From NCBI GenBank assembly GCA_903813345.2, contig CAIIXF020000010.1, positions 17,869,181-17,933,180 of the forward strand: 64,000 nucleotides of DNA, given 5' to 3'. Shown piece by piece: positions 30,801-53,968 of the stretch. This stretch comes from Owenia fusiformis (Eukaryota > Annelida > Polychaeta > Sabellida > Oweniidae). Positions within the stretch are counted from its first letter, which is position 1. Every line of letters begins with the position of its first letter. A model generated the notes under the pieces. The model saw only the letters and a program-made list of their open reading frames with translations, made no database searches and was not told the origin of the DNA. The position numbers and the translations under genes were made by a program.

Positions 30801-33800
30801 CATCGGCAATGTTAATTTAACCAGTGTGTTCGAGCATGGGCTTTCAAGAAAGCCCATGGTTGGAGGATATGAAATATTAGACAAATGGTATACAGCATGC
30901 ATAAAACATTATTTCATTGCACGGTTAACATGCGTCTAACATCGCCCTTTTAAAAGCCGATGTAAAACATATTTTTTATTTAGTTTGAAAAATGCCAACG
31001 CAATCGATGCGCAGTATGTGCTGTAATCCGGATTTGTATCATCACAAACAAAACAAAACCTTTTTTGACAAAAAACATCATTTAAGTTATTTTTGAGAAA
31101 TAATAAGCAATATTTTCAGTATACATCGCATGATTGTGATAACCAGTTGTGATGACTTTCCACACGACGCAGGTTTTAGTAGAACAACTGATTTTGAAAA
31201 TATCAATTATCGTAAATTTGCCCACCAATAGAACAAAATTAGAATATTGACTCATACTTTACCTCGAATGACCTAGAACTTATTCCACTGGCTTTGAGTG
31301 ATATTTAACTTTTTCCGTACTGTTTTCGGCTTCTAGAAATACAAAAATCGACGAGGCGGCCTAATCATTCTCTGATCATTAATAAACCGGAAAACCTGAA
31401 ATTATGAATGATGTCAAATGCCAATCAAAACCAAGTATATCAAAATGATTTTCACATCTAATGCCATATATTCATCAATGTAATTTATCAGAGATGAGAC
31501 TTTGGGATGTTATTTTCACCCAACCAAAATAGCCAATTCATTAATAAAGACTAAATCTATTTAACCTTGATCTTCATCCTTCGTTTCAAATCACCTTAAT
31601 CAAGATTTAATTCTTTTTGGCTCATACAAGCAATCCGGGCCCATTGCCAGTGATGTAGCGTAGATATTTTGTACATATTCTATTTAGCCATACGTATGAA
31701 CTTATTCAAGTTATTGTCAGGCAAAGTTCTACTTGTATTCGCTAGCATTTGTTTCTTTCAGGTTTTCCAATGATTCAGAATGGACGATTGGAGAGCAATC
31801 ACTTATCATTATATTTTAATGTTAATACCCATCCCATCAATTATGCACAAGATCGGTCCACGGAGATTTGATTTATTGTCAAGACTGCATCTCCGACTTC
31901 AAAGGTGGTTATAATACAACGTTGGATTAAGACTCAAGACCCAGCGAACCCCCCCTCCCCCCTGGCCAAAAATTCTTTCAAAATCATGCAGTTTTTCACC
32001 ATTTTGAGCACTTCTCAAGTGATTTTAGCCATATTTGGCCAAAATTGTCAAATGTGAACCCCCCTGGAAATTTTTGAAAACTCCCCCCCCCCCCCCCCCA
32101 CTTGGCAAATCCTGGCTACGGACATGCAAGTGAAACCTTTTGAATAAAGATAGTCCAAATTGACGAACGAAGGACTTCACCATACTCTTTCTGAATTAGT
32201 ATTGAAGTTGGTGTTTAGAGATGCTGGGTATCAATTTCTTATAAATGGTGTGTATTTATTCCATATCATTAGTAGTATATGGAGCTTTAAGAGATTGTTG
32301 TTTAATAATTGTGTTAAATTATTTCAGATCGTTGGTGTTTGGACGTTTGGTGATCAATTATGTGATGCCTGGGTATCCCTAGATGTAATGTTCTGTACGG
32401 CTTCTATACTCAATCTAACTGCGATCAGCGTGGATAGGTAAGCTTAATATTTGGAAGCTGCAGTAAACTGACCATGATAACAACTTTTATTATGCCGACT
32501 ATTCCTTATTTGAATTCACGGAGTGGACGCGGCATCGGACGCACCTTCCTAAAAACGGGTACATATAGTTTGGAATATCCCTGCTACCCATTAGACACTT
32601 GATCTACACAAGAAAATCGATAGGATTCTATGGGTTTGTGTAAAAAACCGGGTGACCGGGTAACCGGGTAATCGGGTGACCGGGTACTTAACGTTCCTAG
32701 CAGGGTTAGGATTTTTTATTTATAATGTTGGATCTGGACGATACATGTACGTTATTTTCGACGTCACGTTTTGAGGTTAACTTTTAACGTTAAAATAACG
32801 TCGGTATTGAACCGATTTAGTGAGAACATATTGACATTTTGCTGAATAGTTAAATAACGTCAGATCCAAGGAGGATTGGAAGCCAGGGTTCCAACTCGAT
32901 ATTCTTTAATCTCCACGCATGCGTCATTTGCTATTCGTGTCTGTATAATTTGTACGACTGCATGGAGAATGACCCGATACTCTCCAACAAAGCTATCGCT
33001 AGGTGATTGTTTTGCAGAATATCGGTGTTGCATTCTGGGAGCCAATCCTCCTTGGTCAGATCAATACGGTACATGAACGTCATTATTGACGTCACGTTTT
33101 GAGGTTATTTCAAATCGAAAAAACGTTTCGACTGTAACGCGGTAAATACGATACAAAAATATGTCATATTCAGCAGCGAATATGGCATATTCACTTGCGG
33201 TGTATAGTTTTTTTTTTTAGTTTTTATGGTTTCTTTATTTTACTTTACAAAATTATCTACAAATGACAGGGCCGAGGCTGAAATCAGCATTATTGGCCCT
33301 GTTAATACAAAGTTTATTCAAATTTACAAAATAGCAACAAAATGACTACCAACATGTATGTATGCATGGCAGGAATGTGTTAAAACTATATAATTATATC
33401 AATGCATTTACACAAAAAGGATTTAAAATGCTTCAATATTGAAGAATTGCATGTTATGCTAACTCCATCTCTGCCATACATTAAGATATTCAGCTTTTGC
33501 TCTATAGAGCATCCTGTAAAGAAAATGTTCATTTCTGGCATGTTCCTGAGTTCCCCCCAAAGTTTCTCTCTTATAACATTCAACAGAGGGCATTTGAAGA
33601 TTAGATGCTTTGTAGTTTGTTGTTTAAAACCACATATGCATTTGGGACTGTCAATACCTTGAAAATTATGTTGAAAAAGATGACCAGTAAAAATGAAATC
33701 ACATCTTGTTCTATTCAGTAAAATTTCTTCTTTTCTTGTAAGATCCAGGTTTGTGGTTGTTAAATGCTTCACTCTCCCTGAATATTTACGTAAATTGGTT

Positions 33801-36800
33801 TTGAAAGTGACTCTTGATGGTGCACTTTTTAGATAATTTGGAATGGCTTCCCATTCTCTTATGGCATTTATTATTGGTGACTTTTGTGAACGTGCAGTTA
33901 ACTTTGGAATAGTGTATTCTCTTGATTTTCTTAAATTAATATTATGTTGCTTGTTTTGATAACTATCAAAAATTTTTTGGACATAAGTTGGGACCAATTT
34001 CTGTCTAACATCATACATTAAACGTAATCGTTTCTCCTTTCTCCGCTCAGACAGGGTATTCCAATTTAGACATTTCAAAACCTTTACAGTAGATGTTCCA
34101 TGAATGCAGCCACTTACTAATAATGCTGCTCTATAATGAACTTGGTCTAGTTTCATAATATTATACTTGGTAGATTTTTCAAATAATATACTTCCATACT
34201 CTAAGTTTGGGAGAATAAATGATAGATACATCTTCTCTAGGTGTTTAGCTCGAATCTTGGTCTTAAGAACTTTCAATGGATTTAACATTATATTACATGA
34301 TTTTATGATATCCTGTAAATGGGCTTCAAAATTCAAATGCTCATCTAGAATGACTCCCAAGTGTTTATGAGTTCTGGTTCTATTAATGACCTCATTTCCT
34401 AGGTAGAGAGGAGGGTATAGGAGATTGCACCTCCTTGAGCCTTTAAAAATCATATCTTGACTTTTAGAAGGTTTAAATTTAAGCTTCCATTTCTGTGACC
34501 ATTCCCATAAATTATTTAAGTCAGCTTGTAAATGCTGGTTCTGTTCAATGATATTAGCTTTCCTATTAAATGGCATAAAGATTGAACTATCATCTGCATA
34601 AAGGTAAAGTTGACTATGATTTATGACTTCATGAAGGTCGTTTATATATAACAGGAAGCAAAACGGCCCAATTATGGATCCCTGCGGCACGGAACTATTT
34701 ATGAAGTATTCATTTGAGATTGCTGATAATTCTCCATTAGCTTTAACTTGAAGTCTACGATTGAAAAGATACGACTGCAAAAGTTGAGTTATAGTATCTG
34801 AAAAGCCATATGATTTAAGTTTTTTTATCAAAAGGAAATGCGGAACGGAATCAAACGCAGATTCTATATCAAGAAACACTCCTCTGACATCATGATTATT
34901 ATCAATGTTATTGTCAATCAGATCAACAATTGTTAACAGTTGTTTTTCTGTGCTATGTCCTGGAAGAAAACCAGACTGATTTTGATACATTAAGTTGTTG
35001 TCTTTAACATATTTAAACATGTTATTATAAATAATACGTTCTAGCAATTTAGAAACATTACTTAACAAGGTAACTGGTCTATAATTTTTTGAATCACCCT
35101 TTGATCCTTTGTTTTTATATAAAGGTACTACAGTTCCCAATTTCCAACAAGTGGGAAAAACTTGTTTGTCAATTATTATATTAAATAAGTCAAAAAGAGG
35201 TTGATCAATACTATCACAGCACATTTTTAACATTTTATTTGAAATGCCATCTGGCCCCCCTTGTTTTGAGACATCAAGATTTTGAATAAGTTTATTAATG
35301 TCTCCCTTAGTGAATTCAATTTTATCAAAAATCATGTCAGTTTTCAAAGGTATTTCTGGTGATTGAGTTTCATCATAGTCATGATGGAATTTAGATAAAA
35401 ATTGATTAAGCAAAAAGTTTGCATTTTCTGAGCTGTTTTCAGCGGTGTATGACAGATTCAGATTCACCTGCGGTATATGGCATACACACTAACCAATGAG
35501 AACGTGATACGGAAGTACGCAATTGTCAATTGCATCGAATGAACGAACAAGTAAAATGTTATAAATTGTTATAATGATTACTTAATCAACAGTACTGTGT
35601 ATCGAATATATTAACTTAGCAGAAGTATCAGTCACCAATCTCGCGTAATAGACTTACTCAATCAATCCAAGATGTATATATTAGTACTCGACGCACTAAC
35701 TATATTCGTAATCCAGCGTAGTTTTACATTTAAAGTCGATTCTCGCAACCAATTAAATCAAGGCTTTCTGTATCACGTTTTCACCTGTGGTATATGTCAT
35801 ATTTACCTGCGGTATATGGCATATTCCGCAATTTAGTATGACATATTCCGCAGGTGAGTATCGGGTATTCAGTGAAATCAATGTATCGCATATTCACTGC
35901 GGAATATCGCATACTCACCTGCGGAATATGCCATATACCGCATGTGAATATGGCATATTCACCCGTATCAAAAATACCGCGCAACCATGAATGTATGCCA
36001 TATACCGCGTAACATCGACAACGTTAAATGTTAACGTTAACAATACGTCGGAAATGAAACGACTTAGTGAGAACACAAAGTTTTTGTCATGTTTTTTCCA
36101 CCAAAAAATATTTGGATATTAAAAGCCTATTTTGACAACGTTAAATTCTAACGTTTGAGTTACGTCACATATGGACCAACGTAGTAAAAAATCAAACGTT
36201 CCTGTTTGTTTTGTTTTCCACACTAACGAACTTTACGGACACGTTACAACAACGTTCTTTTTATACCATCAATAGATGTCTCATGTTTACGTTGCCTCGA
36301 TGTGCAAAGAACGAAAATGTGCAACGTCTTCTTGGAACTTATATGCTACTTATGAGCAACGTGACATGGACGTCATTGTTTGCTGGATCGATTATTTTAA
36401 AAAGTGCTCTGTCTCGTATAGGGTAAAAATATCGAACAGCAGTGCACTCGGTAGGCTAAGTCTGTCAAGTCAATTCGCTACTATATATCGGGGGAAATGT
36501 GGAACTTTGAAAGTTGGTAACCCTGCCAGGAACGTTAGGTACCCGGTCGACCGGATTCTATCCTTTTTGCAAAGTTATTCCAAAAATAAAAGGCTGCATT
36601 TTTGAATCACCCTATACCATCTCTTCCTTCCACCTGTCTTCTTCTTGGACCTTGTGTCGAGTTGCTTATGCAGGATCCCCTCAAATAATTTCTACTTGTA
36701 TCCAGTCAAAAAATGTAATCGTGTTTTGGCCAATGCGATTGAAACAATAAGATATACCACGCTGAAAAACATTGAAAGCGAAGTAAAATATTCATAATGT

Positions 36801-39800
36801 TCCTACTATGTCTCTAGTAAATTGGATTTGTCAAGGGACAGAAAATAAGAAAAATAAATCAAGATTAGTGCGAAATGGGGAATTGGGTATGTACTCGACA
36901 ATGTATGGTGAGCTATGTGACAGGCTAATGTAAGTGTTGAATAATGGCCGCGCCTCTTGCTTCGGTGACTAAACATCAGCCTAAATTGCATGATTGACCT
37001 GCCCGTATGAACAAGTCTTACACACATCCAAAATACATTGACAACATACCAAATGGAAAAATTAATGTTTCACTGTGGAGAAACTCTTCAAACTAGTTAC
37101 AGAAACGGTTCCGTTTACGTAACAAAATGTCGCAGCCTTGAAGGTACGATTTCACGAGTTGTTGGCATAGAACCTTTTTGGAACAAACATGTTGCTGTTA
37201 CTGCCATACATTTTTGCCCAAAATGTCGTGGACATTCTACCTACATCTCGAGTAATCATGGAAAAAGTAGAATGGTACCTTCGTAGCTGCGACATTTTGT
37301 TACGTAAAGGGAGTTTCTCCACAGTGTGTTAGTGACAATGGTGGCTTCGAATGCATCGATTACGTAAAATGTACGTTCTATGAGGCGTTTCGAAATCGTA
37401 GACGAAACTGTATTGCTCACATCCGTATGATCCTAGATTAGGGTACAGCTGTGAATCTTGTTCTAATGTCACAGCCTTATTTATAGACTAAACATGAAAT
37501 GAACTCTAAAAGATTTACGATACTTGCATATGCCTGGCAGTGTAGCAATTTGAGGAGACATATTTCTAAGATTGTAGTGGGATTTCCCCTTTTCATCTCA
37601 ACCATAAAGAATCGCTGAGGCAATTTGGATTCAATCAAGGTGAAAAATTCAACCATTGAAAACTTTTGTTCTTTGGCAATTTATATTTGAGATCAACTTA
37701 AGGTGAAAATCCCCATCCATTTGGCATCGCAAAGAATGAACTATTGTATCAGGAATCATTGACTAACAAATTCAAATCATATACATGTACATGTATGTAG
37801 CCGCATTGGATAATAATCCACGCGCCACTGTTATAAAGATTTTTGCAAATAAATAAATAAATAATAACGTCAATCTCACCCCCCCCCCCCTTCCCCTTAC
37901 TTACTTACTATTCAAAAACATTGTCCAAAGCCAAAGACTATGAAGCATTGCGTCCATAATCAAAACACATGTTGAAGAGAAATTTAAAACATCAAAGTTA
38001 GTTATGGAAATGTTTATATATTTTGTATTTTGTACCATAATTTGGTGATTCATTATGGTACAAAATTAAACTTTGGACTATTCTTAGATAATGAGGATAA
38101 GAGTCTTCAGGTGTGATTGCAAGAAATGATTTCTGTGCAATCTCTAGAAATAGAACTTCATTAATTTGTGCTAATTCGAACCTCCTAAACAATATAATCA
38201 GAGATCAGTCGTATTTCATTGCATAAAACTTAGTTGAATTTCAAAACACGTACATTGTCACGATCAATATATTCAAATCACGTACAAAGAATAAGGTTTA
38301 CCGGGGGGCTACAGCCGTAAGCTCTTGATAATCGGGGGAATTGAATTATCTATTAAGGGGATGTGATTCCTATGAGAATGACCAGAATCAAGAGGATCAA
38401 GAAACTCTTTGTCAGCGTTCGTTATTTTGATGACACATGATGTTCAACACATGAGATTATAAATTGCTGTGATTCGAAGGGAAGGCCTGCAAAACTACAG
38501 ATACTTGATATTCCCATAGGAGTTGTAGTGTTTCTGTTTCTCTTTTGTTTTCCTTATGACTGACTTATATTTATCTTAGATATTTTGTTTTCTTGTTCTG
38601 TTTTTAGTAGACCTATTTTCCCTTTGGCACTTGTGTATACAATTTCATCTGATATGCACTTATATTTTCGAAAGTTCATATATTTTATTAGTACATCAAC
38701 ACAGCCCTCATAATTTATCTATGGGATTTACTTAATCTAGGTAGGATACTGTTTCAATTTGTTGTGATTAGTTCTGATATGTTTCAAAACCTTCTATTTG
38801 TCTTTTCAGATTTATTGCAGTTACACAGCCAATAAAGTATGCTAAACACAAAAACTCAAGACGTGTTTGGGTTATGCTTGCCCTAGCTTGGTTCATCTCT
38901 ATCGCCATTGCGTCTCCCATCGCCCTGGGTATGAACTACAGTGCAGACCTTGAACCAAAGAGGGACCCTAACCTCTGCATATTCTACAATTCAGACTTTA
39001 TTATATCATCATCAATGGGATCATTTTATATACCAGCATTAGTAATGGGGATACTGTATTGGAGGATATTCAAGGCTATCCGACTAAGAGCGCGGAAAAG
39101 CCTTCAGCATAAAAAGATAAGCAGTACATGTTTTGAAAATCAAAATACCCAAACTGGGTCAGATCATAACGATAATGGAAAGAGTTCCGACGTAGACGGG
39201 TGTGTTACAGACAATTCCCTAAAGGAGCTAGTCTCCCCATCCTCTCCCCGTCGATACAGACCAAGTTTAACTGCTGACTCTGGCGCCATTTTGAACACTG
39301 TTACCATAACGACAGAAGAGGAGACAGATACTGAGGTAATAAGAAATCAAACTGCGACAAGTGAAGACTTGTTGTCACCTACTGATGGTGAAAAACAAAG
39401 TGATAACAACAAACTTAGTCCTGTAAGTGAAGACAGTCCATCTGGACTGGAATTTGAACGCAATGGTGACTCTGGTTACCATGCCCCAGTGACAGTAGAG
39501 GCAGAGACATCTTTTAACACACTCACAGTGCCCTCTGCAAAAGCGCTCACAATACAAACTCCTAGATATATGCCAAGTCATACTGGGGGTAATTATAAAG
39601 GAGTTAAGTATAAGAAACGATTAAATCCTAAATCAAACGGGACGACACATAGGGCGCAGAGAAAGAGTGTTACCAAGTTCAACTTCCACATGCGAAGTAG
39701 TAGAAAGAGAAAGGAAAAGTTTTCCAGTAAGCGGGAAAGAAAGGCCACGAAAACACTTGCCATAGTTCTAGGTGAGTATCGAGATGTGATGAGGTTATCT

Positions 39801-42800
39801 ATTATATGATACCCTAGTCGGCCATCATCAAAATAAATACATGATTTATGTTATTGATTCAGTAGTAAAATGCTATGTGCTAATTCTGATTGACCAACTA
39901 TATCATAATCTCACTACCAGAATGAATTTATTGGACTGCACCGAGTTAAGGTAATTGGTCAAGATTATTTACGAGACAGTACCAGGTTTACAGGGCACAT
40001 TGGGACATAAAATTAATCAAGTGATTATAAGAGGTTTCAAACATGATTATCGTACTCATGAATAGCTTACTCAGCTATTATCTAAATTCTCATTTGTCAT
40101 GAGAAACTAATTATTTCACCTAGATTGAAATCAATTTATCTTCCTGAAATTGTTGGTAATAGACGCAAGTGCTTACAACAGAATACACAATATTATATCA
40201 TAATGATCACTTAACTAAAACGTTCACCCCTCGTTGATGTCATAAAGCCGTCTTCATTTAACAATGGCCATTTATTGAACAACCACAATCAACATTTTGG
40301 TCCACTAGTCACCTTGATTCATCATAGTTATGTTCCCTAGTATGAAATTACAAATGTGATGCATGGTATCGTCTGTTGATTTTTTCAAAATGTAATGGTT
40401 GTATGGTATTGTGGTTTAGGTTATTGGCATATGGTCGCTTTATTTATGTATTTGACCAATGTCGCGTGCCATGGATATAAATAAAGGCATCATGGGTATC
40501 CTGTCGAGTGTTGAACTCTTTCATTGTTGTTGTTGACCATGTCTTTATTTTTGTGTTAATGATTTGGGAATTTGGAATTTTGGAATTTTTCTGTTTCGAC
40601 AACTATTTCTATGGATTCCATGAATTATTTCAAAGTGCTGTTGCTTGGTTTTACTGTATTAGTTGGCACTCGTGCTTTTACACACATTTCCTTTGATATC
40701 TTGAAAATATAGGGATTGGCTGATTATAAGTGTGCTTTTTGGGGGATTAGACTATAAGAAACGTCATATCTTTCGTAAACCATGGTTTATGTAATAAACA
40801 ATATTGTTTTGTAATACCAATCACTTGATATCTAAAAGAAGCAGTCTCTGGAATACAATTCTGAACCAAAAATACTCCTAAATATTTTTCAAATTCATAA
40901 TGATCATTTTGTAAGAAATATCGTGCATTATGCCGGTATCCAGTTATTCTTCGATGTGCTGTTCTCAATGACAGAAATAACCCTTGGTTTTACGTGGTTT
41001 TCGATAGTACTACGGGTTGTCTGATGGGGAAGGAGGTCCTTTGAAATTGATTCTTTGTATGTTTGATAATTGCTTTGGACGTTGGGGTTTGTTTCCTCGT
41101 AACCGAATGCCTTTTCATTTTCTGAGACAATTTCTGTAAATTATCAACTTAAAGATATTATTCACATTGTACGTTAGATTTCAAAAAATGTTAGAACATC
41201 TGCTGGTGACGAGAAATCATTTTTTCAAACCTTAATTTTTCAGAAAGGAAGCTAAGTATGAACATGACTGTACTACATGATCATTTGCATCATTGAGGGT
41301 ATTCAGCTGTATGCGCAGGACTGGTTTGTGATACTACAGACATCAATTCCAAACTCAGACTAGCCGTGAAATCATCATTATGGTGTCAATGCACATCATG
41401 TAAAACGTGTGATAAAAAGAATATAGTATAGCTTTGTTGCAAATGATGATCTCAAATCAATTAGCTAATTGTAGTTATCTATCGTGGCATGTCGAATAAT
41501 GTGAATGGGGTACCAGGAGACCTATAACTACTATGGAATATATCATGTCGTATAATGATCACATCACATATCCCAGGTGTATTCCATCATGAAGTAACTG
41601 TCCTCATATTCGTATTCAAACTCAAAACCATATAGATATTTATAAAATATTGACAACGAACAGGACGACATGTTATGAATAGTTAAGCCACATTTAGGCC
41701 TCCTAGACTTCCAACAACGCAAACATCAGTTCTGAGCTCGCGAACTACGTTCCTTGCGCTCGAACCACGATTCTCACGTCGCGAACGTGAAATTTTTAGT
41801 CGCACACCACCATTTCCACGCTCCCGAACATATTTCTCCACTGCTTGCTTTTTGGATAATTGGTGTTCTGACTGAGGCAGTGCTACAAAAGTTGACAATG
41901 CCATATTTGCGAAACTAGTAGACTGAAACTATCTTTAGATTTTTATACTATTAGGTCTACAAATCCAATGTACATATTATAGAATATTCAAAAATACAAT
42001 CTTTAGCTGTTTGGAAACTATTGCTTGTAAAACTTGAAATATGTAGTGTATCCATCGAATATACCTTTGAATTTCATGTTTGACAATACAAGCATTCAAT
42101 ATGTTCCGCATATATTTCATCGCAGGGTCAATAACACCAAAAGGCACATTATACACATAAGCCCTCAGTCACAAAAGATTGAATCTTTGTAATACCTTGA
42201 TTTATGGCATCAATTCTAACGGAGTCAAATACCCTGCTATCAATTAATTAAGAACAAAGCCTTGTCTAAGACGCTATCAAATAAACTTACCCACACCAAT
42301 ATAACTACAAAAAATTCAATTTGTGCCTAAGATGAATACAGGGGAAGATAAAGAGAACATTAGCAATGGATTCAATCAACATCAGGTTTCAAACAATACC
42401 AGTAGGATTCTTCAAAGTTACTGTCTTAGACACAAGACATAAATTCCCAGACATAAACAAGCGCAATCCTATTTGTCACCATTTCATTCTAATTCATCTC
42501 CGTGTTGCGTCTCTGTTGTGGAAAGAACTCTTTTATCAAATAGATAGGATCGATAAACAACGTTTGCTTAGAACAAATATGTTTATCTTTGTTTGAACTG
42601 TTGTGGTTTGCTCTTTTTGGAATAATCGATGGACTCATTGTTATTCGTATCTAAAGAAAGATGCATATTCCTATGATTTAACAGCAACGTTTAATACTTG
42701 TCGCCGGTGGTCACCTGAACTTTCTCGTTAGAAATATACGTATTATTATTCACATCAGGAGCGATCATCTTTGTTGTTTATTTAATGATTATAATCTGAC

Positions 42801-51009: not shown

Positions 51010-52230
51010 TTATTTTGGGAGACTTTGTTTTACTTTCTCCATGCACTCTATAATCTTTTGAGTAATTATTTCCAAATTCTCCCAACTTCCAGCTTCATTC
51101 ACCTTGAGCAACTTTTCGTCCTGGTGTTCAAAATACAATTTATTCCCTTTCAAAACAATGAACACAAATCTAAACCCATCTGATAGAACATTGAAGAATG
51201 GAATATCCATAGCGTCAACTTCACAGTTTTCATACATCTCTTCATGCCATTCTGCCTGGATGAGCAACAGTTGAAGGATGCATTGTGGGACACTATCTCG
51301 ATTCATTGAAGACCCCTTGGCCTCTAAACAACCAACACATTGTTTACTGATGTAAAATCTATAATCATATCGGTTGTTTGGTAAGATTTCGCTATGGACC
51401 TCATCCTCTGTTCTCACACATACAGAAATAAACTTGCAAATTGGTAGAAATATGACATCCAGTATTACCCTTGCATCAGTTTCACATGTTCCTAGGCATT
51501 CTAAAGCAGTCTCGGAGGGTTTAGACTGCTCATTGCCTTTTAATTGTAAGACATTCCTCCTCTCTTTAATGTCAAGTCTAATCTTCTCAAAAACCTTGGA
51601 CGTTGATTCACATTTGTTGAACTCAAGACGCATGACGGTGTCCTCAATGTGAATATATTTGCTTAGCAGAGGAATTGTCCACTCGCTACCTGGTCTTTTA
51701 AAGTCTGGTTTGGGATCTTTGGGCTTCCTTTTTGGTTTATTTAATGGATCTGAATGAACGGTGAAAGGTCCATCAGGAAGTTCAAGTTTTGCTTTCTTAT
51801 CGTTGACTTTACCGTTTACATTTTGGGACTCTCGATTCATAGGTGATGTTGATTCCTTAGTTCGATTCATTAGGTATTCAAAGGCATTCAGATCCTGATG
51901 CAGTGAGGAAGAATCCAATGTTTCTTTCTTTACAACAGTGTCTGCATCAATTTTACAATCCTTTTCAACACTACTGAAATCATTGATGATGATAACAGCA
52001 TCTTCTGAGTCTGGCTTAGAAATAGTAGCTGGCGGTACATTAACTGAAACGTCGGCTTTTCGCTTAGATCCAATAGTAGGATACCTGTTTTCTAGAATGT
52101 CACTGATTTCAATATCCTGTGCTGGTGGAACTGATTGAGTGAGACTTTCTATGTTAGATGGACTCTCAATTACTACGTGGTGAGCTGGTTGCAACGTAGA
52201 CATTTCACCTTGATCCGCTTCTTTCTTTAA
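51010..52230 (-). CDS. 3' coding part: repeat unit 5b, SIM-like motif and nuclease-like domain
   Basis: Resumes with L-KKEADQGEMSTLQPA, the expected second half of repeat unit 5, and runs to TAA 51010. An ATG inside the MITE (52330-52332) opens the frame, but the 35 residues it adds come from transposon sequence. D323, E337 and K339 (numbered in that longer frame) are the candidate catalytic trio, with Q350 and Q354 in the following helix. EWTIPLLSKY (217-226) begins the folded domain. It could also be a nuclease-fold domain that has lost activity. Confidence 0.7.
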   Translation of the reverse strand, partial: LKKEADQGEMSTLQPAHHVVIESPSNIESLTQSVPPAQDIEISDILENRYPTIGSKRKADVSVNVPPATISKPDSEDAVIIINDFSSVEKDCKIDADTVVKKETLDSSSLHQDLNAFEYLMNRTKESTSPMNRESQNVNGKVNDKKAKLELPDGPFTVHSDPLNKPKRKPKDPKPDFKRPGSEWTIPLLSKYIHIEDTVMRLEFNKCESTSKVFEKIRLDIKERRNVLQLKGNEQSKPSETALECLGTCETDARVILDVIFLPICKFISVCVRTEDEVHSEILPNNRYDYRFYISKQCVGCLEAKGSSMNRDSVPQCILQLLLIQAEWHEEMYENCEVDAMDIPFFNVLSDGFRFVFIVLKGNKLYFEHQDEKLLKVNEAGSWENLEIITQKIIECMEKVKQSLPK

Positions 52231-53968
52231 CCCTAGAAGCCCTAAGGTAAAAATAGTCACACGAACACCTAAGGGGGGGTCAAAAGGGCACCCCCCTTTT
52301 AACTTTTTTATTAGCAGAGCTAGGATGTTCAAACTTTTTCCACATATACTTTATTCAATTATCTACAACTTGGTGTAAACACTTTAACTACTACGATGAT
52401 GTAAGATTGTGTAATTTTATTCTTAAGACAACACGTATGGTAGAATTAGTGCTAGCTTTTTTTCTGATTTTGTCTATTGGAGCTGATGCTTACATCATAA
52501 TAGATTAATAACAAATTAGTAAAGCTAGGATGTTCAAACTTTCCCAAAATATACTTCATTCAATTATCTACAACTTGGTGTAATTACTTTAACAACTATG
52601 ATGATGGAAGAATGTGTAATCTTATTCTAAAGATAACATGTATGGTAGAAATAGTGCTAGCTTTTTCCGATTTTGTCTATTGAAGCTGATGATTACATCA
52701 TAATAAATCAATTACCCTGTGTACAATCTTGCTGATTTTTTCAGAAAACATTTGTTATATCTGTAGCTTCAGCTACTGAAAATTTGAAGACCCTACCAGG
52801 TGCCAATAAAAAGTTATGGGGAAAAAACTTAACAGGGGGGGTCATTTTGACCCCCCCTTAGGGCTTCTAGGGTTAATGACACAGAGGAATCATTCTGTTC
52901 ATTCTGTTCATTCTGCAACGCTGTAGGAAAGAACGAAGTATTGCTACCCAGATTCGATGGCGTCGTTTTTTCTGACTCATCTGGTGACTCTTTATTTTCA
53001 ATATTTATGGAGACTTCTGATGCCACGAGGTCTTGATGTTCTTTTAGCATTAATGATAGATTGGAACCATTTTGTTCATACTGTGATGCTGAGGGAACGG
53101 ATATAGTATGGCTATACAGATTTAATCGCATAGTTTTATCCGACTCATTTAGCGACTCTCCGTTCTCTTTATTTATGGAAGAAGCTGGTGTCACGATAGG
53201 AATGTCTTCTCGATCCTCCTCTAGCATTGATGACACATCAGAACCATTATGTCCATGCTGTAACGCTGTTGGAACGGACGTAGTATGGCTATCCAGTTTA
53301 AGCGTAGTTTTATCTGGCTCATTTTGAGACTCACTAATCTCAATCTTTGCGGATGAAGGTGTTGTCAACGTTGAAATGCCCTCTTGACCTTCTTCTAGCA
53401 AAGACAAAGTAGACTCTCTCGTCTCTGACTTTATCAAAGAAGCTTGTGCCACAAAAGAAATGTTCTCTCGATCCGCTTCTCGCTTTGATGACACAGTGGA
53501 ATGACTTTCTTCATACTGTGACGGTGAAGAAACAGGCTGAGTATGGCTATCAAGTTTTGGCGTCGATTCATCAGACTCGTTTAGAGGCTGTACATTCCCA
53601 ATCATTTTTGAGAAAGCTGGCATCACAGTAGAGATGTCTTCTCTATCCACTTCTAGATTTGATGTCGAAGTGGAACTGTTCAATCTTTGCAGCAACGTTG
53701 ACGGAACAGGTTTAGTTTTACTACCCAGGGTTGGCTTAGTTTTACTGGATTCACTTGAGGGCTGTTCATTCTCCTTCTTTGAAAGAGGAGCTGGTCTAAT
53801 GGTGGGGTTATCATCTCGACTCTGTAATAACATTCGTGCAAATCTCGATGACAGACATTCGGAGTTTATGGAACCAATTGCAATAATATTCTTTGGTCGT
53901 TGTTTAGATTTTCCCGAACTTGAGCGAGAGTTGAGTGGACTGAGGAATTCTTTCCAGAGCTCTGCCAT
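51010..53968 (-). CDS. Unrecognised repeat-containing protein with a PD-(D/E)XK-like C-terminal domain, interrupted by a MITE
   Basis: Two frames, 53968-52877 (365 codons up to the insertion) and 52229-51010 (405 codons), form one protein of about 770 residues once the TTAA-flanked insert (52231-52872) is ignored. A basic N-terminus (SGKSKQRPK) precedes five degenerate units of about 56 residues (from residue 70). Next come a SUMO-interaction-like VIIIND with acidic neighbours, a sumoylation-type VKKE, the motif NAFEYLM, and a Lys/Pro-rich likely nuclear signal. The C-terminal domain has a D-x(13)-E-A-K core (CLEAKG), followed by QLLLIQAEW and SDGFRFVFIV, the pattern of restriction-like nuclease folds. 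No named family recognised; nuclear location and nuclease ancestry are inferences. A TTTTATTTTCAG acceptor just upstream (exon begins 54002) implies a 5' non-coding exon. TTTATT (AATAAA on -) near 50828 is a possible poly(A) signal. Confidence 0.7.
52231..52872. mobile_element. 642-bp piggyBac-type MITE inside the 51-54 kb gene
   Basis: Perfect 17-bp inverted ends CCCTAGAAGCCCTAAGG, flanked by TTAA on both sides (52227-52230 and 52873-52876). The CCCTAGAA terminus and the TTAA duplication are the piggyBac superfamily signature. Just inside each end is a GGGGGGTCAAA/CCCCCC palindrome. The interior is two tandem copies of a 205-bp unit (52311-52515 and 52516-about 52715), around 85 to 90 percent identical by eye, each with GCTAGGATGTTCAAACTTT and ATCTACAACTTGGTGTAA. 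No transposase is encoded. Confidence 0.93.

Follow-up and report, generated by a model that had tools for sequence, protein, structure and literature searches.

Probable truncation of a repeat-bearing gene of Owenia fusiformis by a TTAA-flanked piggyBac-type MITE

The DNA analysed here is a window of 64,000 nucleotides from Owenia fusiformis, in which the minus strand is open on either side of a short element with inverted ends. The question raised by this locus is whether the two open frames are the halves of a single gene broken by a transposable element, two separate genes with an element between them, or one gene from whose message the element is removed. The features concerned are collected in Table 1. 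Joined at one copy of TTAA, the two sides give an open stretch of 773 codons, of which 770 are counted from the ATG; the joined frame, on the minus strand, begins with the ATG at 53968, ends with the stop at 51010-51012 and reads ...SSVS-L-KKEAD... across the junction. The initial annotation had described open frames on both sides that become continuous on joining, and this is borne out over the 770 codons. It had also stressed that excision restores the frame. The joined frame is indeed open, but such a restoration is automatic for any TTAA insert in coding DNA, because the insert is removed together with one TTAA.

Table 1. Features of the interrupted gene and of the inserted element, in window positions.
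Feature	Position	Strand	Length	Description
piggyBac-type MITE, non-autonomous	52231..52872		642 bp	17-bp perfect inverted ends, tandem duplication inside
TTAA, one target-site copy	52227..52230			
TTAA, other target-site copy	52873..52876			
Read-through into element end	52829..52872	-		leucine by TTA, 14 foreign residues, in-frame stop
5' part of interrupted gene	52873..53968	-		ATG first base 53968; 364 codons before TTAA
3' part of interrupted gene	51010..52226	-		rest of repeat unit, conserved C-terminal region and stop

The 5' part carries repeats of about 55-60 amino acids, as counted by eye, and the insertion had been placed in register with them. When the joined DNA was aligned to positions 688-786 of the same gene, which lie upstream, the junction was crossed ungapped with TTAA facing TCAA, and the single gap, of 9 bases, lay away from the junction. 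This alignment scored 74; 300 controls in which the right half was replaced by random window DNA had a median of 47, and none went above 60. The left half alone scored 46. The right half alone found its best match elsewhere in the gene, at positions 314-354 with a score of 32; by eye, this stretch is the equivalent portion of a different repeat unit. The score above all 300 controls upholds the register of the insertion with the coding repeat; the assignment to the fifth unit was followed by eye only.

A genome search found the gene of 51010-53968 at only two places, the window and a locus on the same chromosome (C10:5.29 Mb). The paralogue at the latter is one intact frame of 570 amino acids in which the beginning of the 5' half and a large part of the 3' half find a match, and since a single intact frame matches parts of both, the two halves were one gene. 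The paralogue is without the expanded repeat units of about 55-60 amino acids (by eye) seen in the window copy; it thus shows that the halves belong to one gene and does not provide an exact empty site. Over 256 aligned C-terminal codons, dN between the window gene and the paralogue is 0.19 and dS is 0.76, which argues that the gene pair has been under constraint. The opposite view, that each open frame is a gene of its own, with the element in between, can draw on the long frame present on each side and on an ATG at codon 10 past the site on the 3' side. However, the one intact paralogue matches parts of both frames and the junction is in register with the repeat, and we regard two separate genes as extremely unlikely. 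The host gene is shown to have been continuous before the insertion. With respect to the encoded protein, Pfam gave no family for the 5' half, the 3' half, the C-terminal region or the paralogue, and a PDB search by sequence gave no match for the 3' half. An AlphaFold2 model of 241 own residues of the C-terminal region had a mean pLDDT of 36.7 and was of no use. By eye, this region contains an E-x-K motif, which presumably recalls PD-(D/E)XK nucleases.

Concerning the element, its coordinates, its perfect 17-bp ends and the TTAA on both sides had all been given correctly, as judged by the window sequence. The ends, CCCTAGAAGCCCTAAGG, form a perfect 17-bp inverted repeat that begins CCCTAGAA. 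Terminal inverted repeats of the piggyBac superfamily start with CCC/CCY, and CCCTAGAAGCCCTAAGG, perfect over 17 bp, starts in agreement with this motif. In the interior lies a 152-bp tandem duplication (52310-52461 and 52515-52666, 88% alike), extended by 54 bp at 89% and with a spacing of 203-205, and the subterminal stretches are G/C-rich. The coding capacity is small, the longest stop-to-stop frame wholly inside the element being 83 amino acids. Among the literature text matches for the string CCCTAGAAGCCC, no transposon paper was found by title.

A DNA search of the species' own genome (498 Mb in 525 contigs, with 40 of 283 candidates scored) returned at least 40 long matches to the element, the window copy included, at 91-100% identity. 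An exact 19-mer composed of TTAA and 15 bases of the element end occurs 136 times in the genome and its reversed control not once, which argues that the end is not a product of chance; the left end with inner bases, at up to two mismatches, occurs 70 times, again against none for the control. TTAA adjoins the left end in all 39 other long copies and the right end in 38, the exception (L046) being without a right end. The length is 623-656 bp in 37 of the 39, a set that omits a 429-bp form and other short end pairs, and the two remaining copies measure 596 bp (one end missing) and 1027 bp (internal insertion). As in other non-autonomous piggyBac elements, a TTAA duplication and inverted ends are found together with the lack of an own transposase and with many copies of similar length. 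The element is like piggyBac-type MITEs in having TTAA on both sides, in ends beginning CCC, in being short, non-coding and multi-copy, and in sharing its genome with PF13843-family transposase genes. It is unlike them in that no same-ended partner was found among the loci examined, and in its two forms, one of two units (642 bp) and one of one unit (429 bp). Judged by TTAA on both sides, by end sequence and by copy uniformity, the element is a piggyBac-type MITE.

The one-unit form also provided an empty site. A 429-bp member of the family (L056, 3555-3991) lies within a repeat that also bears a piggyBac-family transposase frame, and a second repeat (L059), 97% identical to the first, continues through this position uninterrupted by the element. 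The joined L056 has TTAA here and the empty copy TTTA, a difference that counts against the insertion reading and that we take to be a later substitution. The pair shows the ends of the family and the tetranucleotide that it duplicates. The family copies, this empty site elsewhere in the genome, the in-register join and the intact paralogue all support what the initial annotation had proposed, namely a piggyBac-type MITE inside a coding repeat of a once-continuous gene.

The insertion may be pictured as follows. A transposase supplied in trans would have inserted the non-autonomous element at a TTAA in a repeat unit of the long open minus-strand coding region, with duplication of the TTAA. The interrupted copy would then read 14 foreign residues and stop at 379 of 770 codons, so that the conserved C-terminal region would be lost. 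The frame from the ATG in the window now ends at 379 amino acids, compared with 770, and the allele is most likely a null or truncation allele with a presumed loss of function. A shorter protein may be started at the ATG found at codon 10 after the site, and we count this against the main reading. Taken as a whole, we consider it very probable that a TTAA element was inserted in a once-continuous gene and truncated the window copy.

How often the family lies in host exons was scanned in the joined flanks (450 bp on each side, a span that shorter exons would escape) of the 38 other copies with TTAA on both sides, L046 being dropped. The join at the window copy is open over the whole span (298 codons). 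The longest open stretches over the join among the other copies are 175 codons at L017, 162 at L047 and 124 at L011. The flanks of L017 look by eye like a retrotransposon, and the joined frame of L047 resembles no protein recognised by eye. Only two host-exon insertions, one per orientation, were recognised among the 39 copies with joined flanks, and this number does not by itself call for targeting. The second of them is at L011 (G000:C12:28437138-28438787), where a family copy has split exon 1 of a clustered cytochrome P450 gene; to the right of the site there is a Pfam p450 match (E 9.6e-9). Identity to the joined exon is 75-78% at its 8 closest matches within this C12 cluster, and the site is spanned without the element, and with no net gap, in all eight, one of which has a stop inside.

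Both exonic insertions bear on a different outcome, in which the element would be spliced out as an introner-like new intron through an acceptor near its end and a nearly full-length protein would be kept. Splice sites were scored with approximate frequencies, and the scores are rough both ways. The window gene offers 81 in-frame stop-free GT-AG pairs, its halves are both still open, and its best pairs use strong acceptors in the element, at the 98th-99th percentile of window AGs. However, in none of the 81 pairs do donor and acceptor both reach the 90th percentile. No usable donor ranks above the 75th percentile (score -2.6), whereas the presumed real exon end of the receptor gene in the window reaches 6.4 and the top percentile on the same score, and the best gene-sense donor inside the element lies behind an in-frame stop. 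A side remark of the initial annotation, that the allele may splice around the insert, thus finds little in the window gene to sustain it: strong element acceptors pair there with poor donors, and truncation is therefore the likeliest outcome. The P450 copy is more favourable to splicing. Its scan, counted from the ATG, gave 43 in-frame pairs, and in 2 of them donor and acceptor both reach at least the 90th percentile. The better of the two joins, in frame, a host donor at the 96th percentile, 8 bases ahead of the TTAA, and an acceptor at the 99th percentile in the element end. The family carries acceptor-like ends, and splicing at the P450 copy is a live but unproven possibility. The low number of host-exon insertions, with 2 recognised among 39 copies with joined flanks, counts against splicing, and we consider it unlikely that the window element is removed in this way. 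If it were so removed, the locus would offer a modest but testable example of an animal gaining an intron.

The conversion of transposable elements to introns is of a known kind, and introners carrying a 3' site and taking the 5' site from elsewhere have been described (PMC9860276). The present family is like the introners of this account in that a short inverted-end element lies in a coding exon and has strong acceptor-like sites in its ends. It is unlike them in that the window gene has no in-frame pair with two good sites and in the small share of its copies in host exons (2 of 39). Exon inserts that are excised are also of a known kind in ciliates (PMC8354472; PMC9942856). As in the internal eliminated sequences of Paramecium (PMC8354472), we observe a transposon-derived exon insert whose exact removal would restore the frame; the present genome, however, is that of an animal, in keeping with the rhodopsin-family receptor in the window, and any developmental elimination of DNA here would be hypothetical.

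The age of the insertion was approached through an alignment and tree of the window copy and 38 other copies, L047 being left out on account of its internal insertion. The window copy differs from the family consensus by 29 substitutions in 641, only 7 differences are private to it, and it sits in an older subgroup of the family. Its terminal branch is 0.017, which is an upper bound on the time since insertion because it may include time before the window copy arose. Against truncation, neither half of the window gene has acquired a stop or a frameshift. A simple neutral model puts the probability of such an outcome at 2% for a divergence of 0.017 since insertion, at 8% for 0.011 and at 31% for 0.005, which indicates either an insertion more recent than the branch would imply or a gene that has kept some function. 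Of these two, the more recent date is the simpler explanation. It may even be that the insertion is very young or polymorphic, with intact alleles still circulating and the interrupted one represented in the assembly, a view compatible with the main reading and differing from it in age and frequency only. The absence of lesions in either half and the mere 7 private differences speak for it, but the 29 substitutions from the consensus and the placement in an older subgroup, the terminal branch of 0.017 and the failure to find a second, empty allele in the assembly do not; we see it as a serious possibility, though one towards which we do not quite lean. It has also to be considered whether removal of the element, either from the message or from somatic DNA, is frequent enough to keep host genes working, so that the MITE would serve as a new intron with its own acceptor in the inverted ends and a donor borrowed from the host. 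Such removal would explain the lesion-free halves of the window gene and fits the good pair at the P450 copy, and yet we rate it as decidedly unlikely. The truncation of the window copy remains the reading that we prefer.

As regards the source of transposase, 113 genome stretches are over the cut-off of the piggyBac transposase family (PF13843). Thirteen of the loci with transposase matches (L048-L060) were selected and searched for the element ends with up to 6 mismatches in 21, in limited flanks (to 10 kb at L058). Element ends around the transposase were absent in 12 of these 13 loci, and the match at L056 is the nested short copy. A looser end search gave other candidate ends at 7 of the 13. 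Two of the loci, L049 and L050 (G000:C5:1031612 and C5:3529821), have piggyBac-family transposase frames of equal score and the same candidate ends, and are perhaps a recently copied element or a duplication. Of the 136 end sites, 100 were listed. Four places have atypical inner bases, one of them being the copy L041. Three atypical places were fetched: one is a pair of ends separated by about 430 bases, each of the two others shows a single typical end within 4.5 kb, and by eye none of the three has a transposase-like frame. The suggested search for an autonomous piggyBac with the same ends therefore found none among the 13 transposase loci and these three places, a point against the main reading.

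Integration of piggyBac at TTAA and its footprint-free excision are known (PMC7351741). The insertion described here is clean but ordinary; it exemplifies a well-known kind and not a new one, and as it stands it leaves the knowledge of piggyBac elements unchanged. It is of value as a natural instance in which the breaking of a coding exon by a TTAA element is clear and the empty state has independent support, and as a marker of past activity of the element family. For annotation, the locus is to be treated as one interrupted gene, not two. Elsewhere in the window, a rhodopsin-family receptor exon lies at 38778-39809, its best PDB matches being the serotonin 1A, dopamine D4 and dopamine D2 receptors. 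An open frame of 700 amino acids with a reverse transcriptase domain (Pfam RVT_1, E 1.3e-32) is found at 33389-35488, and this stretch is probably a retrotransposon.
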